Source of the DNA: Cryptosporangium minutisporangium
GTDB lineage: Bacteria > Actinomycetota > Actinomycetes > Mycobacteriales > Cryptosporangiaceae
Assembly: GCF_039536245.1 (NCBI RefSeq)
Contig: NZ_BAAAYN010000006.1
Span: forward strand, 1-64,000
Reading direction: 5' to 3'
Length of the DNA stretch: 64,000 nucleotides
The notes below the pieces were generated by a model. It saw only the letters and a list, made by a program, of their open reading frames with translations. It was not told where the DNA came from and searched no databases. This document shows, piece after piece, positions 49,389 through 63,861 of this stretch (its first letter is position 1; each line of letters begins with the position of its first letter). A program made the translations under genes and the position numbers.

Positions 49389-50564
49389 ATGAACGCGCAC
49401 GACCTGCCGCAGGCCACGCCCTGGTACCGCCGCCGGCCCGTGACCGACACGGTTCTGGCGCTGGTCGTCGGGGTACTCACGGCAACCGGTGAATTCGGTA
49501 CCAACGACTTCTTCGGGCCGACGCTCGTCGGACTCGACGACCGCTTTCCGCCACTGTGGCTCGGCGTACCGCTCGCCGTGGGACTCGGGGTGCTGACCCG
49601 ATGGCGGCGGCGGCTTCCGGTGGCGCTGCTGACGGGAGCGCTGCTGGCGAACGCACTGGTGTCGGCGCACATTGCGGTCGTCGTCGCGCTGTACACGTTG
49701 GCCGAGCGCACCACCGCGTGGCCCAGGGTGGGCGTCGGCACGCTGGCCTCCATCGTCCTGGTGGGAGTCCCGATCTGGCGGTTCGCCGGCGCGGACGGCG
49801 CGATCCCGATCAGCACGGCGGTGTGCGTCGCGCCGGCGCTGCTGGGCATGTACGTCGGCACCCGGCACGAACTGGTGGAGCGCATCCGGGAGCGGGCCGA
49901 ACGCCTTGAGCGCGAGCACCACCAGCGCATCGCTCGGGCCCGGAGCGACGAACGGGCTCAGATCGCCCGCGACATGCACGACGTCGTCACCCATCGGGTC
50001 TCGTTGATGGTGCTGCAAGCCACGGCCTTGGAGGTGTCGACAGGCAAGGGCGCGGTCGCGCTCGGACGACAGATTGGAGCGACCGGGCGTGAGGCGCTCG
50101 CCGAACTCCGTTCGCTGATGACCGTTCTGCGCAACGCGGACGACGCGCCGCTCGCACCCCAGCCAGGGTTAGCCCAGCTGGACGTCCTTGTGGAGGAGTC
50201 TCGGCGGATCGGCATCCCCGTGACCCTCGAGGTGACGGAGGCTGCGGGGCAGCGTCCACCATCGCTCGTGGAACACACGGCCTACCGGTTCGTCCGGGAG
50301 GCGCTGACCAACGTGCACAAACACGCGCCCGGAGCACGGACGCGGGTACGCATTGAGCAGAGTCCGCGGCTGCTGCGCCTGTCGGTGCGCAACGGCCGCG
50401 GGCAGCCGGTGGTCGATCCTCCGCTGCCGGTCGGCGGTCATGGGCTACTGGGGCTCGCGGAGCGGGTGCGATTGGTCGGTGGCGAGTTCAGCGCGGGCCC
50501 CACCGCGGATGGGGGCTTCGAGGTCGTCGCCGAGGTGCCGGTTCGCTGGGATGATACGCGGTGA
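49389..50564 (+). CDS. NarL-type sensor histidine kinase (HisKA_3)
   Basis: This 391-aa kinase has four or five N-terminal TM helices (to about residue 160), a coiled coil, a HisKA_3 domain with His197 in RDMHDVVTHRVSLMVLQA, and a HATPase domain with the N-box VREALTNVHKHAPG and GHGLLGLAERV. It should phosphorylate the next gene product. No ribosome binding site; TAACCT ends 8 nt before the ATG, which suggests a leaderless mRNA. It diverges from the reductase fusion (142 bp), a possible target. Confidence 0.9.
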   Translation: MNAHDLPQATPWYRRRPVTDTVLALVVGVLTATGEFGTNDFFGPTLVGLDDRFPPLWLGVPLAVGLGVLTRWRRRLPVALLTGALLANALVSAHIAVVVALYTLAERTTAWPRVGVGTLASIVLVGVPIWRFAGADGAIPISTAVCVAPALLGMYVGTRHELVERIRERAERLEREHHQRIARARSDERAQIARDMHDVVTHRVSLMVLQATALEVSTGKGAVALGRQIGATGREALAELRSLMTVLRNADDAPLAPQPGLAQLDVLVEESRRIGIPVTLEVTEAAGQRPPSLVEHTAYRFVREALTNVHKHAPGARTRVRIEQSPRLLRLSVRNGRGQPVVDPPLPVGGHGLLGLAERVRLVGGEFSAGPTADGGFEVVAEVPVRWDDTR

Positions 50565-51229
50565 CGTCCCCGACCCGCGCGATCAAGACCCTGATCGCCG
50601 ACGACGAGTGGATGGTGCGTTCGATGCTGCGCACCATTCTGGAGGCGACACCCGACATCGTGGTGACGGGCGAGGCCTCCGATGGCATCGAAGCCGTCGA
50701 CCTCGCACAGACGGTGCAGCCCGACGTCGTCCTGATGGACATCCGGATGCCACGCGGCGATGGACTCACGGCGACCGAGCGGTTGGCGCTGCTGGATCCG
50801 CCGCCGCGCGTCGTCGTGCTCACCACGTTCGACCTCGACGAATACGTGCATGCCGCGCTGTGCAGCGGCGCCGTGGGGTTCCTGCTGAAGGACGCAACGG
50901 CCGGGGACATGCTCGCCGCGGTGCGCAGTGCAGCCCGTGGCGACGCGATGCTCTCCCCGCGCATCACTCGCCGGCTGCTCCGGAAGTTCGCCGAGCCGGC
51001 GCCGGACCGGCGCAGCGACGCCGCCCAGCGGCTCGGTGTGCTGACCGACCGGGAACGCGAGGTCCTCGGCGCCGTCGGCGGTGGCCTGTCGAACACGGAG
51101 ATCGCGGCCACCCTCTACATGAGTGAGGCGACTGCGAAGACCCACGTCAGCCGCATCCTCGCGAAACTGGGCCTCAGCAACCGGGTACAAGCGGCGATCC
51201 TCGCACACCGATCCGGCTTGCTCGACTGA
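50561..51229 (+). CDS. NarL/LuxR-type response regulator
   Basis: This 222-aa regulator has a receiver with phospho-acceptor Asp60 in VVLMDIRMP, a switch Thr in VVLTTFD and Lys in FLLKDATAG, and a LuxR HTH at the C-terminus (LTDREREVLGAVGGGLSNTEIAATLYMSEATAKTHVSRIL). The GTG start overlaps the kinase stop as GTGA. It is the cognate partner of the upstream kinase. Targets are unknown. Confidence 0.92.
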   Translation: MTSPTRAIKTLIADDEWMVRSMLRTILEATPDIVVTGEASDGIEAVDLAQTVQPDVVLMDIRMPRGDGLTATERLALLDPPPRVVVLTTFDLDEYVHAALCSGAVGFLLKDATAGDMLAAVRSAARGDAMLSPRITRRLLRKFAEPAPDRRSDAAQRLGVLTDREREVLGAVGGGLSNTEIAATLYMSEATAKTHVSRILAKLGLSNRVQAAILAHRSGLLD

Positions 51230-52147: not shown

Positions 52148-52762
52148 TCACGACGAGGTCGGTGCCGGGGTGGCGTCCAGCTTCTGGCAGGCCGGTGCGG
52201 CGCCGAAGGCGTCCCGGACCGATTGTCCGGCACCGGTCGTCGTGTCACGCAGCAAGCCGACCAGAGCGGTCACCTCGCGTGCCGCGTCGCTGAGCGCGTT
52301 CTTGACGCCCACCAGCGCCGTGCCCATCGCCCTGGCGGAGTTCGCAGCAGCCACCTCGTCGGCAGCAGTTCCGAGTTGGTCGACTTCCATCCGGACGTCG
52401 TCGGCCTGCGCGGCCAGCTGCCGCTGAGCTTCCTCCACCTCCGCACCGGCCTCGGGCGGTACGGCGGTGACCGCCGTGTTGAGCGCCGCAGCGGACTGCC
52501 GCGTCTCGGCGACGCGGTCGCGGACCTGAGTCCTCGCCTCGTCGAGCGACGCCCGCGATCCAGCCGGGGCGAGCTGAAGCGTCTGCCCCGACCGGACCGA
52601 CGCCCGCAAGTCTGCCGATGCCGCGCAGACGCCGTCGGCCCAGGCAACGGCTGCGGTCGTGGACGGTTCGGTCTCCGAGGGCGTCGTCGATTCGCCACAG
52701 CCGGAGAGGAGCAGAGCGCAGGACGAGACCGTGAGCACCAGTATCGATCGAGTCGAGGCCAT
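52148..52762 (-). CDS. Putative lipoprotein, helical, unknown function
   Basis: This 204-aa protein has a lipoprotein signal peptide with lipobox LLLSGC about 20 residues from the ATG at 52762 (an upstream ATG at 52804 would add 14 residues). The mature part is a Ser/Thr-rich linker followed by long amphipathic helices (RTQVRDRVAETRQSAAALNTAV and AEVEEAQRQLAAQADDV) that look like coiled coils. It ends in a short tail with CQKLD. I do not recognise a family. It would be anchored outside the membrane. Confidence 0.68.
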   Translation of the reverse strand: MASTRSILVLTVSSCALLLSGCGESTTPSETEPSTTAAVAWADGVCAASADLRASVRSGQTLQLAPAGSRASLDEARTQVRDRVAETRQSAAALNTAVTAVPPEAGAEVEEAQRQLAAQADDVRMEVDQLGTAADEVAAANSARAMGTALVGVKNALSDAAREVTALVGLLRDTTTGAGQSVRDAFGAAPACQKLDATPAPTSS

Positions 52763-52893
52763 ACGAGCAGGGTTCGTCGTGGCCCCGCTCACCGCCTCAT
52801 CCATCGCGAGTGAATGGCGTGCCGGCGCGGACCAGGCGACGCCTCGACCGCGCCGGTCGGCCGGCGAGCCGAGGCGTCCGCCCGGTGGGTGGA

Positions 52894-53340
52894 TCAGTAC
52901 TTGACCTCGCGGCCGTGCACGGTCAGGGCGTAGATCACCAGGACGTCGAGCGCGATGGCGATCGTGGACCAGACCGGGTACGCGGCGAGGAAGGTGATGT
53001 TGGCGACGATGCTCACCGCAGCGATGAGGACTGCGATCGCCTGAGCCCAGGGCTTCCCGAGCAGGATGCCGACGGCGGCCGCGATGGCGACGCATCCGAT
53101 GATCAGGTGGATCCAGCCCCACACCGTGTAGTCGAGGCTGATCAGCAGGCCGTCCTGAGTGACCAGGTAGTACTCGTCGTTGATCAGCGCGGCCAGCCCT
53201 TGGATGATCTGGAACGTGCCGACGATCACCAGCATGATCGAGGCGAAGAAAATCATGCCCACCCACGCGGTCGCCCGGGAGCGCTCCGGCGACGTCGGCG
53301 GTGCGGTGGGCGCCACCTGCGGCTGTTGTGTCTCGGACAT
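52894..53340 (-). CDS. DUF7144 membrane protein (internal start of the fusion)
   Basis: Starting at ATG 53340, this 148-aa product has four TM helices (VGMIFFASIMLVIVGTFQIIQGL, a DYTVWGWIHLIIGCVAIAAAVG block, and two more) typical of DUF7144 proteins. AAGGAG lies 6 nt before the ATG inside the coding linker of the upstream YihY part, strong evidence for independent translation. The reading frame is shared, so both products are possible. Function is unknown. Confidence 0.65.
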   Translation of the reverse strand: MSETQQPQVAPTAPPTSPERSRATAWVGMIFFASIMLVIVGTFQIIQGLAALINDEYYLVTQDGLLISLDYTVWGWIHLIIGCVAIAAAVGILLGKPWAQAIAVLIAAVSIVANITFLAAYPVWSTIAIALDVLVIYALTVHGREVKY

Positions 53341-54360
53341 GCCTATCTCCTTGCTAGATAGGGTCGGAACACGAGCGGAATCGGGATGCATCGTCGCGCC
53401 GAGCGAGGAGCGGCGCGCCATCCGCGGGGGATGAACACCGGCTGTCGACGAACGGCGGGCGACCGTCAGGCGCGTCTGGACCCGCGCCGCGAGCCGGGCC
53501 AAGTCTTCGTCGAGCACCCGTCCCAGCACCGCGGTGAGCAGCAGGGCGAAGGAGAGTACGTACAGCCAGCCGATGTAGGTGAAGGCCAACCCGATCGTGC
53601 CGTAGCGCTCCTCGCTGACCCGCAGCGTGCGCGGCAAGTACAGGCCACCCGCCGGGCGCAGGGCCAGCATCAGGAGCCCGTAGATCACGCCGCCCGCGAC
53701 GAGCTTGCGTAGCGGCACTCGCCCGGCCAGCAGCACGCGGGGAACGAGGATGGTCAGGGCGCAGTCAGCGAGGAAGAGGGCGGCTCCGGAGGAGACGCGG
53801 GGGAACCAGAATCCCTCCGTCACCGCGCCGATGACGCGTGTTCCCACCATCAGCAACGCGAGGGTGAGCACCGTGGCCAGCCAGCGCCAGAGTGCCCGCA
53901 CACCGTGCGGGGTGCCCGTGACTTCCCACACCGCGGCGTAGGCGCGGGTCAGCGCCCGCGCCAAGCCGGTCGTCGAGAGCAGCACGATGACGCAGCCGGC
54001 CACGCCGAACGAGCTGAGCCCGGACTGTCCGAGAGCGTCCCGGAAGAGCTCCTGAGTGGCCGCCGGCAGGTGCACGGTGTCCGACAGTGCTGCCCGGAGC
54101 CGCTGTCCGAACAGCGCGCCGAGCATGAGCAGGAGCGGGAAGACCGAGGTGAACGCCTGCGCCGCGAGCGTCATCGACCGGTCGAAGATCTGGACGCGCA
54201 GCAGTTCGCCGGCGGTGTGGGCCAACACCTGTCCGATCCGGTGCCCGAGTAGTAGCCCGACACGGGGCCGCAGCCAGGCCGGTACCGGGAACAGATCCGG
54301 CGAGATATCGCCGAGAGGTCTGGGAGCGGCGGGGCCGCGATCCTCCGTGGGATCCGGCAT
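52894..54360 (-). CDS. YihY-type membrane protein fused in frame to DUF7144 domain
   Basis: A single open frame of 488 codons encodes a YihY/BrkB-type membrane protein (about residues 1-315). Its six helices include LRVQIFDRSMTLAAQAFTSVFPLLLMLGAL and a TFTYIGWLYVL-like late helix. It then passes an Arg/Ser-rich linker and ends in a four-helix DUF7144 domain (residues 341-488). No stop codon separates the parts. In other genomes these are, as far as I know, separate proteins, so this is a fusion or stop-codon loss. GAGG lies 7 nt before the ATG at 54360. An internal start at 53340 with its own ribosome binding site may give the second domain alone. Confidence 0.7.
   Translation of the reverse strand: MPDPTEDRGPAAPRPLGDISPDLFPVPAWLRPRVGLLLGHRIGQVLAHTAGELLRVQIFDRSMTLAAQAFTSVFPLLLMLGALFGQRLRAALSDTVHLPAATQELFRDALGQSGLSSFGVAGCVIVLLSTTGLARALTRAYAAVWEVTGTPHGVRALWRWLATVLTLALLMVGTRVIGAVTEGFWFPRVSSGAALFLADCALTILVPRVLLAGRVPLRKLVAGGVIYGLLMLALRPAGGLYLPRTLRVSEERYGTIGLAFTYIGWLYVLSFALLLTAVLGRVLDEDLARLAARVQTRLTVARRSSTAGVHPPRMARRSSLGATMHPDSARVPTLSSKEIGMSETQQPQVAPTAPPTSPERSRATAWVGMIFFASIMLVIVGTFQIIQGLAALINDEYYLVTQDGLLISLDYTVWGWIHLIIGCVAIAAAVGILLGKPWAQAIAVLIAAVSIVANITFLAAYPVWSTIAIALDVLVIYALTVHGREVKY
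53342..53362 (-). promoter_or_regulatory. Hairpin at the DUF7144 ribosome binding site
   Basis: On the minus strand, CCTATCT and AGATAGG form a perfect 7-bp stem around an AGCAAGG loop. The AAGGAG ribosome binding site spans loop and stem, one base from the stem end to the ATG. This could hold the start closed unless upstream translation opens it. Confidence 0.4.
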
Positions 54361-54438
54361 GAGCTACCTCGCCTGGCTTGAGGACGAGCGACGGGCGTTG
54401 CTCATCGTCGCCTTCGACGGTGGCGACCGGCCCATCCC

Positions 54439-56187
54439 GTGCGGGTGAGCTGGGTCTGCCCGCCTGCTCATCTGCTGCGGGTGACGACGCACCCGGACGG
54501 CAGCGTCGAGACTCGTCCGGTGCGGAAATGGCTGAGGTGGCCGGCGTTCGAACGACGCGACCTACGCAAGAACCTCGTGGCCGGGCTGCCTGGGGCGATC
54601 AGCAGCGTGCCCGACAGCATGGCCGCGAGTGTCCTGGCCGGAGTGAACCCCGTCCACGGTTTGTACGCGAGCATCTTCGGCAGGGTCGGCGGAGGCCTTA
54701 CCGCTAGCTCGCGCCTGATGGTCATCACCACGACCGGCGCAGCGGCGCTGGCCGCGGGATCCGCCGTGGCGGCGGTGCCCGCTGCGGATCGGCCGCGTGC
54801 GCTGTTGTTGCTCACCTTGATGGCCGGGGGATTGATGATCCTGGCCGCCGTGGCGAAACTCGGCCGCTACACCAGGTTCGTGCCGCACTCGGTCATGATC
54901 GGGTTCCTCTCCGGCGTCTCGGCGAACATCTTCTTCGGCCAGCTCCCGGATCTGGTGGGCGCCGAGGCCACCGGGCCCTTCGCGCTGGCCAAGGCGTGGG
55001 ATCTGCTGTTGCACCCCTCCCGGATCACGTCCGGCGCGCTGCTGGCCGGGCTGTTCGCCCTCGGAGTGTTGGTGGCCCTGCGCCGCACCAGGATGGCCGC
55101 GTTCTCCACGCTGGTCGCTCTGGTCGTCCCCAGCGTCGTCGTCGCGGTCCTCGGGGCGGATAGCGTGCCCCTGGCCGGTGACGGCGGTGCGATCCCGAGC
55201 GGCCTGCCGACACCGACGCTGCCGCGCCTGTCGGATTTCTCGTTCAGTCTGCTCGCCGGCGCGTTCGCGGTCGCGGCGGTGGTCCTGGTTCAGGGCGCCG
55301 GGGTCAGTGAGGCCGCGCCCAACCCGGACAAGAGTCGATCGGACGCCAACCGGGATTTCCTGGCGCAGGGCGTCGGCAACATCCTCGCCGGACTGTTCCG
55401 CGGGCAGCCCGTCGGCGGGTCGGTCGGCCAGACGGCGGTGAACGTGGCGGCCGGAGCGACCGGCCGCTCCGCCGCCATCTTCTCGGGCCTATGGATGGCG
55501 GTGCTGCTGCTGCTCTTCTCCGGGCTGGTCAGCTCGGTAGTGACGTCCTCGCTCGCCGCGGTGCTGATCTTCGCGGCGATCGGCTCCTTCCGGATCGACG
55601 ACGTGCGCGCGATCCTGCGCACCGGCCGCATCTCCCAGATCGCCGTGGTCACGACGTTTCTCGCGACGCTGTTCCTACCGGTGGCGGCCGCTGTCGGCAT
55701 CGGGGTGGCACTGTCGCTGATCCTGCAGCTCAACCAGGAGGCCCTGGACCTGAAGGTGGTGGAGCTGACCCCCCGGGACGACGGTGCATTCTTGGAGCAG
55801 CCGTGTGCCCCCCGGCTGGAGTCGCGCCAGGTCGTACTCCTGGATGTGTACGGAAGCTTGTTCTACGCCGGGGCCCGGACACTCCAAGCCCGGCTTCCCG
55901 ATCCGGCCGACGCCGAGCACCCGGTGGTGGTGCTGCGGCTGCGCGGGCGGGCGCTGCTGGGGGCGACGGCCTTCGCCGTTCTGACCGACTACGCCGAGCG
56001 GCTGGCCGACGCGGGCGGACGGCTCTACCTGAGCGGGGTGGATCCCGCGGTCCTGCGGCAGATGCGGAGAATGCGGACCGTCGAGCAGGTGCCGGGTGTT
56101 CGGGCCTTCGAGGCCAGCGACGTGGTCGGCGAGTCGAGCCTGGCGGGCTATCACGCCGCCAAACGCTGGCTCGAGTCGGTGAGCTGA
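54439..56187 (+). CDS. SulP family anion transporter with STAS domain
   Basis: This 582-aa membrane protein has the SulP signature at its start (LVAGLPGAISSVPDSMAASVLAGVNPVHGLYAS), about 12-14 helices to residue 430, and a C-terminal STAS domain (about 455-560: VVLLDVYGSLFYAGARTLQARL). SulP proteins carry sulfate, bicarbonate or other anions. The start is either GTG 54439 or GTG 54481; neither has a clear ribosome binding site. It opens the sulfur-related cluster. The MalT-like regulator converges 36 bp downstream. Confidence 0.88.
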   Translation: MRVSWVCPPAHLLRVTTHPDGSVETRPVRKWLRWPAFERRDLRKNLVAGLPGAISSVPDSMAASVLAGVNPVHGLYASIFGRVGGGLTASSRLMVITTTGAAALAAGSAVAAVPAADRPRALLLLTLMAGGLMILAAVAKLGRYTRFVPHSVMIGFLSGVSANIFFGQLPDLVGAEATGPFALAKAWDLLLHPSRITSGALLAGLFALGVLVALRRTRMAAFSTLVALVVPSVVVAVLGADSVPLAGDGGAIPSGLPTPTLPRLSDFSFSLLAGAFAVAAVVLVQGAGVSEAAPNPDKSRSDANRDFLAQGVGNILAGLFRGQPVGGSVGQTAVNVAAGATGRSAAIFSGLWMAVLLLLFSGLVSSVVTSSLAAVLIFAAIGSFRIDDVRAILRTGRISQIAVVTTFLATLFLPVAAAVGIGVALSLILQLNQEALDLKVVELTPRDDGAFLEQPCAPRLESRQVVLLDVYGSLFYAGARTLQARLPDPADAEHPVVVLRLRGRALLGATAFAVLTDYAERLADAGGRLYLSGVDPAVLRQMRRMRTVEQVPGVRAFEASDVVGESSLAGYHAAKRWLESVS

Positions 56188-56223: not shown

Positions 56224-58896
56224 TCAGAGGATGCCGCGTTGGCGGGCGATCGCGACCGCCTCACTGCGCCGGGCGGCGCCCAGCTTGCGGTAGATGGCTC
56301 TCAGGTGGGCCTTCACGGTGTTGACCGAGACGCCGAGAAGCCCAGCGATCTCCGCGGCGCTCAACATCGTGGGCAAGTAGCGCAGGACTTCGATCTCCCG
56401 CTCGCTCAGGCCCTGGGCGATCGCCATGTCGGCGGAGACCCCGGTGCCCGCCCGCACTTCGCTGATGATCTGATCGAGGAACGGCGTCTCGCCGCCGAGC
56501 AGTCGCAACCGCTGCATGATCGCGTCGAGGCGGCTGTCGGCCATCGTGAAAAAGGGACGGCGAATCCCTTCGCGTGCGGCCAAGGCGACCGTGTCGCGGA
56601 GCTGGTCGACCGCCTGCATAGCGTGTCCACGCGCGTCGGCGACGATGGCACCGAGCACACCGGCCTCCACGGTGGCGACGGTCTGGGTCAGCGTGGTCGG
56701 GCTGTACCGCAGCAGTTCCTCGGCGCGCCGCAGGTCGTGGGCGGCGAATGCGAACCGGGCGCGGGCCACTCGGTGGGCGAAGTCGAGTGTGGCGTCCGGA
56801 GCGAGCGTGATGTCTGCCCGGTGGGGCTGCTCGGACCCGCCGGAGGCGAGGTCCACCTCGGCTTCGATCAGCGACATCCAGCGGTCCAGCGTGGGGGCGT
56901 GCAGTCGAGGGCTGCGTTCACGACGGGCCTCGTCGAGGAAGAGGCGTGCTCGGGTCGGCTCCCTGCGGGTCACCGCCAGCCTGGCCTCGATGCCGAGCGC
57001 AACGAGCCGCTGTGCGGCTTCCGGGTTGCCGTGGTGGGCATGGGTGCCCTGACGCAGTGCCTCTTGGGCGGCGTCGAGGTCGTGACGCTCCAGCTCGACG
57101 AGTGCTTGGGCGAAGTGGGCGGCCACCGTCTGCAGTGAGTATCGCCAGCCCCTCCGCTCGGCCAGGGTGCGGACGCCGGTGGCGAGTTGGGCGGCCTCGT
57201 CGGCCGAACCACAGAAGATCTGCAGCAGCGCCAGGTGGCCGGTGGCGTTCATCTCGGTCAATTCCAGGTCCGCCGTGCGCGCTGCGCTGGCGGCAGCTCG
57301 GAGGTCGCGGGCTGCGGCCTCCGGTCGGCCGGTCCACAGCAGTGCGAGACCCCGGTGATTGAGGGCGACGGCGCGTTGCTGGGTGGCGACCAGGCCGTCG
57401 GCCGACGCGTCGGCGGCGAGCAGGTCAAGCAGCTGGGTGCTGACCGCGATGACCGCCCGCATGTTCCCGACGGCACGTTCGGCCAGCATCTCCGGGGTCA
57501 ACAGCATGAGCTCGGTGGGGCGGCGAGTGGCGGTGTCACCCCGCTGCCCGAGCATCTCCCGGGCGCGAGCGATACGTGCCGGGATGGCCTCGTAGTTGCC
57601 GGCCTGGAAGAGCAGCACCACGCTGCAGAAGATCAGCTCCGGCGTCGACGAGCTCTGGTCCGGCGGCACTCGTTGGAGGATCTTGAGGAACGCGTCTTGC
57701 TGCGGGGAGAGGATGAGTGGGGCGCCCTGGGTGGCGACGAGCTGTCCGACGTAGGGCCAATCCTGAGCGGCGAGGGAATGGTCCAACGCCTCCAGGACCG
57801 AGTTGTTCGCGGCGTACCACCGGGCGGCCCGGCGGTGCAGTTCGGCCACCGCCGCGGGGTCCTCCAGCGACAGCCGGTGCCTCAGCGCGTCGCGCATCAG
57901 GTGGTGGTAGCGGAACCACAGCGGTTTGGCGCCGAGCCGAACGACGAAGTCGTTGCTGTGTTCCAGCTGTTCGAGCGTGCGTTGTCCGTCGTGTCGCGCC
58001 GTGATCGCGTTGGCGAGGCCGGCACAGAGCCGCTCGCAGATGCTCGTCTGCAGCAGGAACCGGCGTTCGTTCGCGGGCCAGTTGGCCAGGACCTCGTTGG
58101 TCAGGTAGTCGTCGATGCTGCGGATGTCCCCGGCGAGGTCGGCGATCGAGCGCCCGCCGTTGCCGTCGGCGAGGAAACCGGCACCGAGCTGTAGCCCGGC
58201 CGCCCACCCTTCGGTCCGCTCGAGCAGTTGTCCTACCTCGGCCGCGGCCAGCTCGAGCCCGTGCCCGTGCGCCAGGGCGGCGGCCTCCTCATCGGTGAAC
58301 ATCAGGTCGTCCGCTCGGATCTCGGCGACCTGGCCCTCCGCACGGAGGCGTTGCACGGCCAGTGCGGGTAGCTGCCGACTGATGAGGACGAGGCGCAGCG
58401 GCGTCGGTGGCCGCCGGAGCAGATCGTTCATCTCCTGCAGCACCCGCGGATCGTCGATCTCGTGGAAGTCGTCGAGGACCAGCACTGTCTTGTTCGACAG
58501 CTGCCCGAACCCGGAGCTCAACAGCCGGCCGCGTTCCCGCTCGTCCGTGGGGACGGACCGTAACTCGGCGAGTGCGTGGTTCGGCGGGACGATGCCGGCG
58601 GCATCGAGTGCCGCGAGGACGTACCCCCAGAAGCGCTGCGGGTCGTTGTCGTGCTTGTCCAGGCTGAGCCAGGCGACCGGAGCGGTCCGCGTGCGTGCCC
58701 AGGTCGAGACCAGCATGGTCTTGCCCCAGCCGGCACCCGCACAGACCAGCGTCACCGGGTTCTGCACCCCGGCATCGAGCAGGCTGAACAAGCGCCGACG
58801 ATCGACACCGGGACGAAGTCTCCGCGGGGGCGCTGTCTTGGCGACGACCAACACGGGAAGCGCGCCCGGATCGACGGGCTGCCCGAGGGCCGTCAC
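56224..58896 (-). CDS. MalT-like LuxR-family ATP-dependent regulator
   Basis: This 890-aa protein has the P-loop AGAGWGKT at residues 53-60 and Walker B LVLDDFHEIDD near 145. A winged-helix/TPR middle follows, and the LuxR HTH makes up the last 61 residues (LSEREIEVLRYLPTMLSAAEIAGLLGVSVNTVKAHLRAIYRKLG). This is the MalT/LAL architecture: ATP- and ligand-dependent transcription activation. The GTG start overlaps the MFS stop as GTGA, so it is co-expressed with HAD and MFS genes. It may control the divergent sulfatase genes. Confidence 0.9.
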   Translation of the reverse strand: MTALGQPVDPGALPVLVVAKTAPPRRLRPGVDRRRLFSLLDAGVQNPVTLVCAGAGWGKTMLVSTWARTRTAPVAWLSLDKHDNDPQRFWGYVLAALDAAGIVPPNHALAELRSVPTDERERGRLLSSGFGQLSNKTVLVLDDFHEIDDPRVLQEMNDLLRRPPTPLRLVLISRQLPALAVQRLRAEGQVAEIRADDLMFTDEEAAALAHGHGLELAAAEVGQLLERTEGWAAGLQLGAGFLADGNGGRSIADLAGDIRSIDDYLTNEVLANWPANERRFLLQTSICERLCAGLANAITARHDGQRTLEQLEHSNDFVVRLGAKPLWFRYHHLMRDALRHRLSLEDPAAVAELHRRAARWYAANNSVLEALDHSLAAQDWPYVGQLVATQGAPLILSPQQDAFLKILQRVPPDQSSSTPELIFCSVVLLFQAGNYEAIPARIARAREMLGQRGDTATRRPTELMLLTPEMLAERAVGNMRAVIAVSTQLLDLLAADASADGLVATQQRAVALNHRGLALLWTGRPEAAARDLRAAASAARTADLELTEMNATGHLALLQIFCGSADEAAQLATGVRTLAERRGWRYSLQTVAAHFAQALVELERHDLDAAQEALRQGTHAHHGNPEAAQRLVALGIEARLAVTRREPTRARLFLDEARRERSPRLHAPTLDRWMSLIEAEVDLASGGSEQPHRADITLAPDATLDFAHRVARARFAFAAHDLRRAEELLRYSPTTLTQTVATVEAGVLGAIVADARGHAMQAVDQLRDTVALAAREGIRRPFFTMADSRLDAIMQRLRLLGGETPFLDQIISEVRAGTGVSADMAIAQGLSEREIEVLRYLPTMLSAAEIAGLLGVSVNTVKAHLRAIYRKLGAARRSEAVAIARQRGIL

Positions 58897-60101
58897 GGAG
58901 TCCGACCGGCGCGTCGTATCTGGATCACGGCGATCCACGCCGCAAAGGCACTGCCGGCGGCGAGTGCCCCCAGAGCGGGCCCGTAGTCGCCGTACCGGGT
59001 GAAGGAGAACGCCATGAGCAGTGGGCTCAGGAACCCGGCGATTCCGGCGATCGCACAAGTCACCCCGGTGACCAGGCCAATCATCGTCGGCGGCACGGTC
59101 GCGGCGATCTGGGCGATGACGGTGGTGTTGACGATGCCGAGGCCGACCGCCAGAACGGGCAGGGTACCGGCCAGCGTCAGGGCCAACGGCGGGGTGAACG
59201 CCTGCACCGCCGTGGCGACGGCGAGAACGATCATCGCGGCGGCGAGGGGCCGTGCCGGCGTCAGCCGATCCGCCAGCCACCCGCCGACGGGCCGGGTGAA
59301 CACCGAGACGAGCACGAACACCGCCAGCACGTCACCGGCCCGAGCCGCACCGAGGCGGTAGGTGTTGACCAGGTAGAGCGGCAGGGTGGCGGAGAACGTC
59401 GCGAACAGGGCGAGGCTGACCGTGTACCAGAGGGTCGCCTGTCGGGTGATCGGCAGCCGCAGCACCGCGGCGACCCTGATTCGCGCCGCTCCCGCGCGCG
59501 GTGTCTGCGCCGGCGCGTTGCGCGCAGCCGCGCCCGCGACCAGCGCGAACACGCCAAGAGCGGCGGCGGTGACCAGATAGGGCGCGGCCATGCCGTACTC
59601 CTGGGTCAGCCGGACCGCGGTGAACCCGCCGATCGCGTTACCGCACAGGCCGGCGCCGACCGCACCGATAGCGAGGCCCCGATGAGCGTCGGGGAACCAG
59701 GCACTGACGAACGGCACCCCGACGGTGAGCATGGTGCCCGCGACGCCCAGCAGCGTCGCACCGATCAGCAGACCCCCCACCGATCGAGTTCCGAACGTGG
59801 CGAGCACCAGCAACGCGACGATCGTCGCGCCGGTCACCAACACGAAAACCAGCCGACCACCGAACCGATCGGTCAGCGCGCCGACCGGTACCCGCCCCAG
59901 CGTGCCCACGACCACGGGTAACGACACCGCGAGGGCCTGCTGCATCGGAGTCAGCCCGAGAGCGTCGTCCAGCAGCGGCGCCAGCGGCGCCATCAACGCC
60001 CATGCCCAGGAGGCGAGCACGTACCCCAGGACCGCGACGGCGAGCATCGCGCGACGGTCCGGCCGCCTCGTCGGTGCGGTCACGGTACGAGCCACTGCCA
60101 T
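58893..60101 (-). CDS. MFS transporter, NarK/OFA-like
   Basis: This 402-aa transporter has 12 predicted helices and the segment GTMLTVGVPFVSAWFPDAHRGLAIGAVGAGLCGNAIGGF. That segment resembles the nitrate/nitrite and organic-anion (NNP/OFA) porters, so an anion substrate is likely. ATG 60101 (or the preceding GTG) follows a GGGGGTG. It lies 99 bp after the HAD gene and overlaps the MalT-like gene. Transport of an organic sulfate or sulfonate is inferred from context. Confidence 0.85.
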   Translation of the reverse strand: MAVARTVTAPTRRPDRRAMLAVAVLGYVLASWAWALMAPLAPLLDDALGLTPMQQALAVSLPVVVGTLGRVPVGALTDRFGGRLVFVLVTGATIVALLVLATFGTRSVGGLLIGATLLGVAGTMLTVGVPFVSAWFPDAHRGLAIGAVGAGLCGNAIGGFTAVRLTQEYGMAAPYLVTAAALGVFALVAGAAARNAPAQTPRAGAARIRVAAVLRLPITRQATLWYTVSLALFATFSATLPLYLVNTYRLGAARAGDVLAVFVLVSVFTRPVGGWLADRLTPARPLAAAMIVLAVATAVQAFTPPLALTLAGTLPVLAVGLGIVNTTVIAQIAATVPPTMIGLVTGVTCAIAGIAGFLSPLLMAFSFTRYGDYGPALGALAAGSAFAAWIAVIQIRRAGRTP

Positions 60102-61238: not shown

Positions 61239-61262
61239 CTTCATCCACGCCGGATGAGGCGG
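61239..61262 (+). promoter_or_regulatory. Repeated element upstream of sulfatase
   Basis: The core TCATCC-acgcc-GGATGA is an inverted repeat with 6-bp arms. The 24-bp stretch beginning CTTCATCCACGCC is repeated with one or two changes at 63839-63861. It ends about 68 bp before the sulfatase ATG. Confidence 0.55.
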
Positions 61263-63837: not shown

Positions 63838-63861
63838 CTTTCATCCACGCCGGGTGAGGCG
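63838..63861 (+). promoter_or_regulatory. Second copy of the repeated element
   Basis: CTTTCATCCACGCC and GGGTGAGGCG match the 61239 element at nearly every position (one arm base changed). It lies about 58 bp before the last gene start, the same distance class as at the sulfatase. Confidence 0.55.

Follow-up and report, generated by a model that had tools for sequence, protein, structure and literature searches.

The 64,000-nucleotide stretch of Cryptosporangium minutisporangium DNA analysed here (the window) contains an open frame that runs from a YihY (BrkB) gene into a DUF7144 gene. Judging from the sequence, the two are probably neighbours within one MalT-type regulon, with separate activated promoters, and the first has no stop codon of its own. 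The first-pass annotation had read the locus as two membrane proteins joined in frame, and most likely it took a promoter for a linker.

An open frame and its codon signature

Positions 54360 to 52894 of the minus strand form a single open frame of 488 codons, from the ATG at 54360 to the TGA at 52896-52894, and no internal stop codon was found across it, which bears out the earlier statement that nothing separates the two proteins. BrkB (PF03631) matched residues 57-285 (E 1.2e-15) and DUF7144 (PF23636) residues 370-484 (E 5.9e-39), both above the curated Pfam cut-offs. The AAGGAG and ATG that had been assigned to DUF7144 are also in place (Table 1). The two membrane protein families share one open frame in the window and in a congener (G002). 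Neither the fused protein nor the short one matched an NCBIfam family, and Rfam, at its gathering cut-offs, returned no family for 52500-54800. Automatic annotation would probably call a single 488-aa protein.

We followed the frame with a codon model whose training set, 16,307 codons from long frames of the window, may include the 488-codon frame itself. Residues 1-285 scored a log-odds of +0.44 per codon (GC3 0.88) and residues 286-302 scored +0.53 (GC3 1.00), while codons 303-340 scored -0.44 (GC3 0.66, GC2 0.68) and codons 341-488 scored +0.69. Since the other two same-strand frames of codons 303-340 gave -0.68 and -0.45 per codon, the open frame in this stretch is hardly better than the frames around it. 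By the same model, the 30-codon linker of the congener scored -0.41 per codon between flanks of +0.59 and +0.72. When scored in sliding windows, the signal stays low over roughly the first 20 DUF7144 codons as well, which leaves the stretch without a sharp downstream border. An evolved BrkB-DUF7144 fusion protein would be expected to carry a coding signature through its linker, and the codon model detected none. Lost bias is nevertheless compatible with a functional fusion, because a sequence serving as both promoter and linker would lose it likewise.

Table 1. Features of the YihY-DUF7144 locus, in window positions
Feature	Position	Strand	Basis or detail
YihY/BrkB coding part, normal codon signature, about residues 1-302	53455..54360	-	Pfam and codon log-odds
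Apparent linker, codons 303-340, without coding signature; putative DUF7144 promoter region	53341..53454	-	Codon log-odds
DUF7144 gene, 148 aa from its own ATG at 53340	52894..53340	-	Pfam E 2.8e-40; coding log-odds +0.69
Shine-Dalgarno AAGGAG of DUF7144	53347..53352	-	6-nt spacer to ATG at 53340
7-bp hairpin CCTATCT-AGCAAGG-AGATAGG over the Shine-Dalgarno	53342..53362	-	Arms 53362-53356 and 53348-53342
MalT-type box TCACCCGCACGGGATGG upstream of YihY	54432..54448	-	Pattern search and spacing; 10/12 positions of TCATCC-N5-GGATGA
-10-like hexamer GACGAT of YihY	54404..54409	-	Spacing analysis; 23 nt past the 15-bp core palindrome
MalT-type box TCATCCCCCGCGGATGG within the apparent linker	53418..53434	-	Pattern search and spacing; 11/12 positions
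-10-like hexamer GACGAT of DUF7144	53390..53395	-	Spacing analysis
MalT-like LuxR-family regulator with GerE C-terminus, candidate binder of the box	56224..59280	-	Pfam GerE E 3.8e-13

A MalT-type box and a -10-like hexamer before each gene

The apparent linker contains the palindrome TCATCC-N5-GGATGG, which lies 23 nt upstream of a GACGAT hexamer. A box with a -10-like hexamer precedes both YihY and DUF7144, in the window and in the congener alike, and the same kind of unit precedes a paralogous, unfused DUF7144 gene on contig C23 of the source genome. The linkers of the window and the congener share a short string that lies in different reading frames and belongs to the palindrome CATCC-N5-GGATG, of which the congener has a weaker arm (CGTCC). 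A first guess at the motif, CCCCCGCGGATGG, is common to both junctions and was rejected in favour of the enclosing palindrome. Allowing one mismatch in five genomes, its matches in the source genome (G000), G001 and G002 were fewer than those of the reversed control, so it is not as such the element; in G003 (28 vs 17) and G004 (23 vs 16) they were more numerous than the control.

A box of this form is known from Actinoplanes sp. SE50/110, where 5'-TCATCC-5nt-GGATGA-3' overlaps the -35 region at 17 transcription starts, with its 3' end 34.4 +/- 1.0 nt from the start, and where the MalT-like regulator ACSP50_3915 activates the region concerned (PMC7567727). The palindrome that marks this regulon is found at both boxes of the window, and the -10-like hexamers stand where the Actinoplanes geometry (about 34 nt to the transcription start) would put them. 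By analogy with the published distance, transcription of DUF7144 is predicted to start near 53384 (PMC7567727). The box, its spacing and its recurrence suggest that DUF7144 very likely has an activated promoter of its own inside the apparent linker. A scan of 52700-54600 with the E. coli sigma-70 consensus found no promoter of that type.

The spacing between box and hexamer was counted over 82 box-orientations that a relaxed pattern gave for the window plus seven fetched loci; the site at 63841-63857 was counted twice, because the fetched locus L108 overlaps the window's end. A -10-like hexamer followed the box at 23 nt in five cases and at 24 nt in four, with zero to two at any other offset, the hexamer forms having been picked after the alignments were viewed by eye. 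These nine units include the two boxes of the window, the two of the congener and that of the C23 DUF7144 gene. Outside the genus, 19 of 22 box-bearing YihY genes, many of them closely related to each other, have NR[ACG][CG]AT at 23 or 24 nt, and six instances fell at other offsets over the 60 nt examined. This count took in box-bearing loci only, and 14 of 38 YihY loci gave no box by the pattern used. At seven loci (L011, L013, L015, L016, L018, L020 and L030) the hexamer, mostly GACCAT, is followed by eye after about 6 nt by a GTG or ATG, a potential start codon of YihY, and because of this proximity the YihY mRNA may be leaderless there.

The box is in excess in the genomes of the family. 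YCAYCC-N5-GGRTGR occurs at 47 sites in the source genome against 6 for the reversed pattern, and at 36 against 7 in the congener; G001, G003 and G004 gave 21 vs 11, 17 vs 6 and 10 vs 4. Despite this excess, the fused protein had no match in these last three genomes. Boxes were present in 10 of 52 stretches upstream of DUF7144, the window's included, where single-base shuffles, a weak control, lead one to expect 0.16; by the same score the other 42 stretches have no full box. For YihY, a relaxed box was present in 27 of 38 upstream regions (1.6 expected by single-base shuffles), and some of these, such as those at L014 and L022, sit inside the gene and are probably due to chance. Two further boxes were seen in the window, one at 61241-61257 close to the 5' ends of divergently oriented HAD-family and sulfatase genes, and the other at 63841-63857, upstream of a DUF6069 gene cut off by the end of the window.

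As for the protein that would bind the box, two genes for MalT-like LuxR regulators lie nearby. In the one listed in Table 1, TPR_MalT scores below its cut-off. The second, at C6:68644-71430 (L108:5145-7931), just outside the window, is 62.6% identical to a gene of Actinoplanes siamensis (L024) and is the better conserved of the two. MalT-like matches were found in 19 of 22 YihY loci, for which up to 3 kb was fetched on each side, and in 0 of 14 shorter loci with about 1.5 kb on each side. We also considered the two-component pair at 49389-51229 as the binder and rejected it; unlike the MalT-like genes, it has no match in those 22 loci at E 1e-12. From the parallel with Actinoplanes, we infer that a MalT-like protein binds the box here.

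The likeness to the Actinoplanes regulon extends to the box, which here would lie over the -35 region, the nearby MalT-like LuxR genes, the membrane and transport genes, a gene order that is reshuffled between strains in the maltose-regulated large genomic region, and a class II glutamine amidotransferase gene, which in the congener stands beside a box (PMC7567727). The differences are the genus, the family (judged with five genomes of the window's family) and the position of one box within an open frame that joins two genes. The boxes of E. coli MalT, GGGGA(T/G)GAGG, share the core hexamer GGATGA near -35 (as cited in PMC7567727), whereas the box here is an inverted pair with a fixed 5-nt spacing. 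The OsdR/DevR dormancy regulon of Streptomyces and mycobacteria also has a response-regulator palindrome upstream of stress-related genes, but its consensus, AGGGCCGATCGGCCCT, is a different sequence (PMC5069765), and a comparison by eye with the linker and genome sites led us to reject an OsdR/DevR site. Half-site matches in PMC7432914 are primers. The words YihY and BrkB are absent from the main text of PMC7567727, and no mention of DUF7144 was found in the literature searched. In Actinoplanes the BrkB/YihY gene ACSP50_3383 is raised by sigma-H (PMC11205660). As this gene is not within the MalT region ACSP50_3900-3950, the YihY genes of that organism are not all MalT genes.

Products of the locus and the origin of the tandem

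We propose that a MalT-like LuxR regulator would bind TCAYCC-N5-GGRTGR over the -35 region of each promoter, and that the DUF7144 promoter, with its box, -10, leader and Shine-Dalgarno, would fill the stretch that was read as a linker. Because a MalT-type box and a -10-like hexamer are present for DUF7144, the free protein should have an mRNA to itself, one that would begin downstream of the YihY coding part. As YihY has no stop, ribosomes on its mRNA would traverse promoter DNA and continue into DUF7144. Some fusion protein may thus be made, since neither a stop nor a terminator-like site was found between the genes, and most likely it would be an unselected by-product. The two possible products named by the first-pass annotation, free and fused, both fit this scheme, but their ratio would probably not be set by a hairpin opened by ribosomes, given the internal promoter-like unit. 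Nothing shows either selection of the fusion or a set ratio.

How unusual the missing stop is can be judged from relatives. In 36 YihY loci outside the genus, many of them closely related mutually so that any chance estimate is rough, the frame past the equivalent of residue 285 stays open for at least 55 codons in 7, at least 30 in 13 and at least 100 in 6, and the absence of a prompt stop after YihY is therefore not rare. Four of the six longest tails (L012, L014, L017 and L022) reach a DUF7144 gene that converges on YihY from the opposite strand. Landing in frame on the next gene adds a further factor of about 3, and chance openness multiplied by one third for the frame puts the window's case at roughly 6% and the congener's at about 12%. 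The open configuration is real, yet not far from chance, and the missing stop is probably a by-product in GC-rich DNA.

The one other tandem pair found is the congener's. Of 38 distinct YihY loci, only these two are followed within 600 nt by DUF7144 in the same orientation; the other 36 gave no such match, and no other pair appeared among the matches listed from 397 genomes of the order and 394 of the class (overlapping sets), where the best three or four candidates per genome were scored. At one locus (L120, in G698) a DUF7144 match ends 82 nt upstream of a YihY match on the same strand, in the reverse order to the window. The congener's pair is also an open frame without a stop, with a MalT-type box in a linker that differs from the window's in sequence and by 25 codons in length. 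In the DUF7144 tree (70 rows, few columns) its gene pairs with the unfused C23 copy of the source genome (100/98), and in the YihY tree (38 rows) its gene falls in a clade (100/99) that excludes the window's. This suggests that neither congener gene is orthologous to its counterpart in the window and, because both trees separate the genes of the two pairs, that the tandem probably arose twice. The comparison of stop codons in relatives proposed in the first-pass annotation thus came down to this single pair, which lacks a stop as well but is apparently made of non-orthologous genes.

These two open frames are also the best argument for a gene selected to make two products, a functional YihY-DUF7144 fusion with an internal MalT-type promoter that adds free DUF7144. 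Neither pair has a stop, despite linkers of unequal length and a box in different frames, as if the frame had been held, and this in tandems that seem to have arisen separately; the chance estimates above also count for it, and no terminator-like site was found between the genes. However, linker residues and length are not conserved, both linkers lack the coding signature, the trees give no orthologous fusion of the kind an evolved BrkB-DUF7144 protein would be expected to have in relatives, and the cases number two, the first of which was picked for being open. A further point against it is a different tandem from this regulon, which both genomes have (L061 and L059, with orthologous DUF7144 genes, 100/96) and whose upstream gene does stop, just before the box; from that stop to the DUF7144 ATG the sequence is open in the DUF7144 frame. 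We regard a selected two-product gene as unlikely, though worth keeping in mind. The specific form in which a stop-free frame around an embedded activator promoter was selected twice independently, so that one MalT-type signal yields tethered and free DUF7144, we consider doubtful.

Translational control was the mechanism put forward originally, in which the hairpin hides the internal Shine-Dalgarno, ribosomes coming from YihY open it, and the ratio of fusion to free protein is fixed. The 7-bp hairpin does exist and covers part of AAGGAG, and in a 51-nt fold (z -2.86) it beats 199 of 200 shuffles. The advantage shrinks with other fold lengths, 13 of 200 shuffles being as good at 41 nt (z -1.76) and 78 of 200 at 121 nt (z -0.21), and the AAGG of the Shine-Dalgarno sits in the 7-nt loop (AGCAAGG), with only AG in the stem. 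Perfect 7-bp stems with loops of 3-9 nt are common (133 in the 64 kb), and 4 of the 89 strings of any kind in the window that combine a Shine-Dalgarno with a start overlap one. At the congener junction and four other DUF7144 starts no conserved hairpin was found, the folds being no stabler than shuffles (z -0.40 to +0.97), although Shine-Dalgarno bases are nevertheless paired in some of their minimum-energy folds. Because a promoter-like unit for DUF7144 itself follows the YihY coding part and the hairpin shows no sign of conservation, a hairpin-set ratio finds no support, and we hold this mechanism to be very improbable. A missed stop or frameshift from assembly or base-calling error is just as improbable, since, for all that the assembly has 152 contigs and a contamination estimate of 3.64%, the coding signal of both domains lies in the same frame and the independent genome of the congener is equally open.

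Genes near the boxes

Two neighbouring genes under separate MalT-type promoters would make the apparent fusion mostly ordinary, and the locus illustrates that an open frame in GC-rich DNA can mimic a gene fusion, a mimicry exposed by a promoter element in the supposed linker. The MalT-type regulon is already known in kind; the useful part is its apparent extension, as the sites suggest that the Actinoplanes-type box extends to a further genus and to genes for DUF7144 and YihY. Two membrane protein families about which little is understood would thereby gain a regulon that can be tested. Other genes at or near boxes encode a SulP permease, a sulfatase, Na+/H+ exchangers, an MFS protein, DUF6325, DUF1269 and DUF308. 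Three more DUF7144 genes of the source genome lie within about 15 kb (G000:C23:75344-90538), preceded by boxes and in the neighbourhood of SulP, MFS and Na+/H+ exchanger genes.
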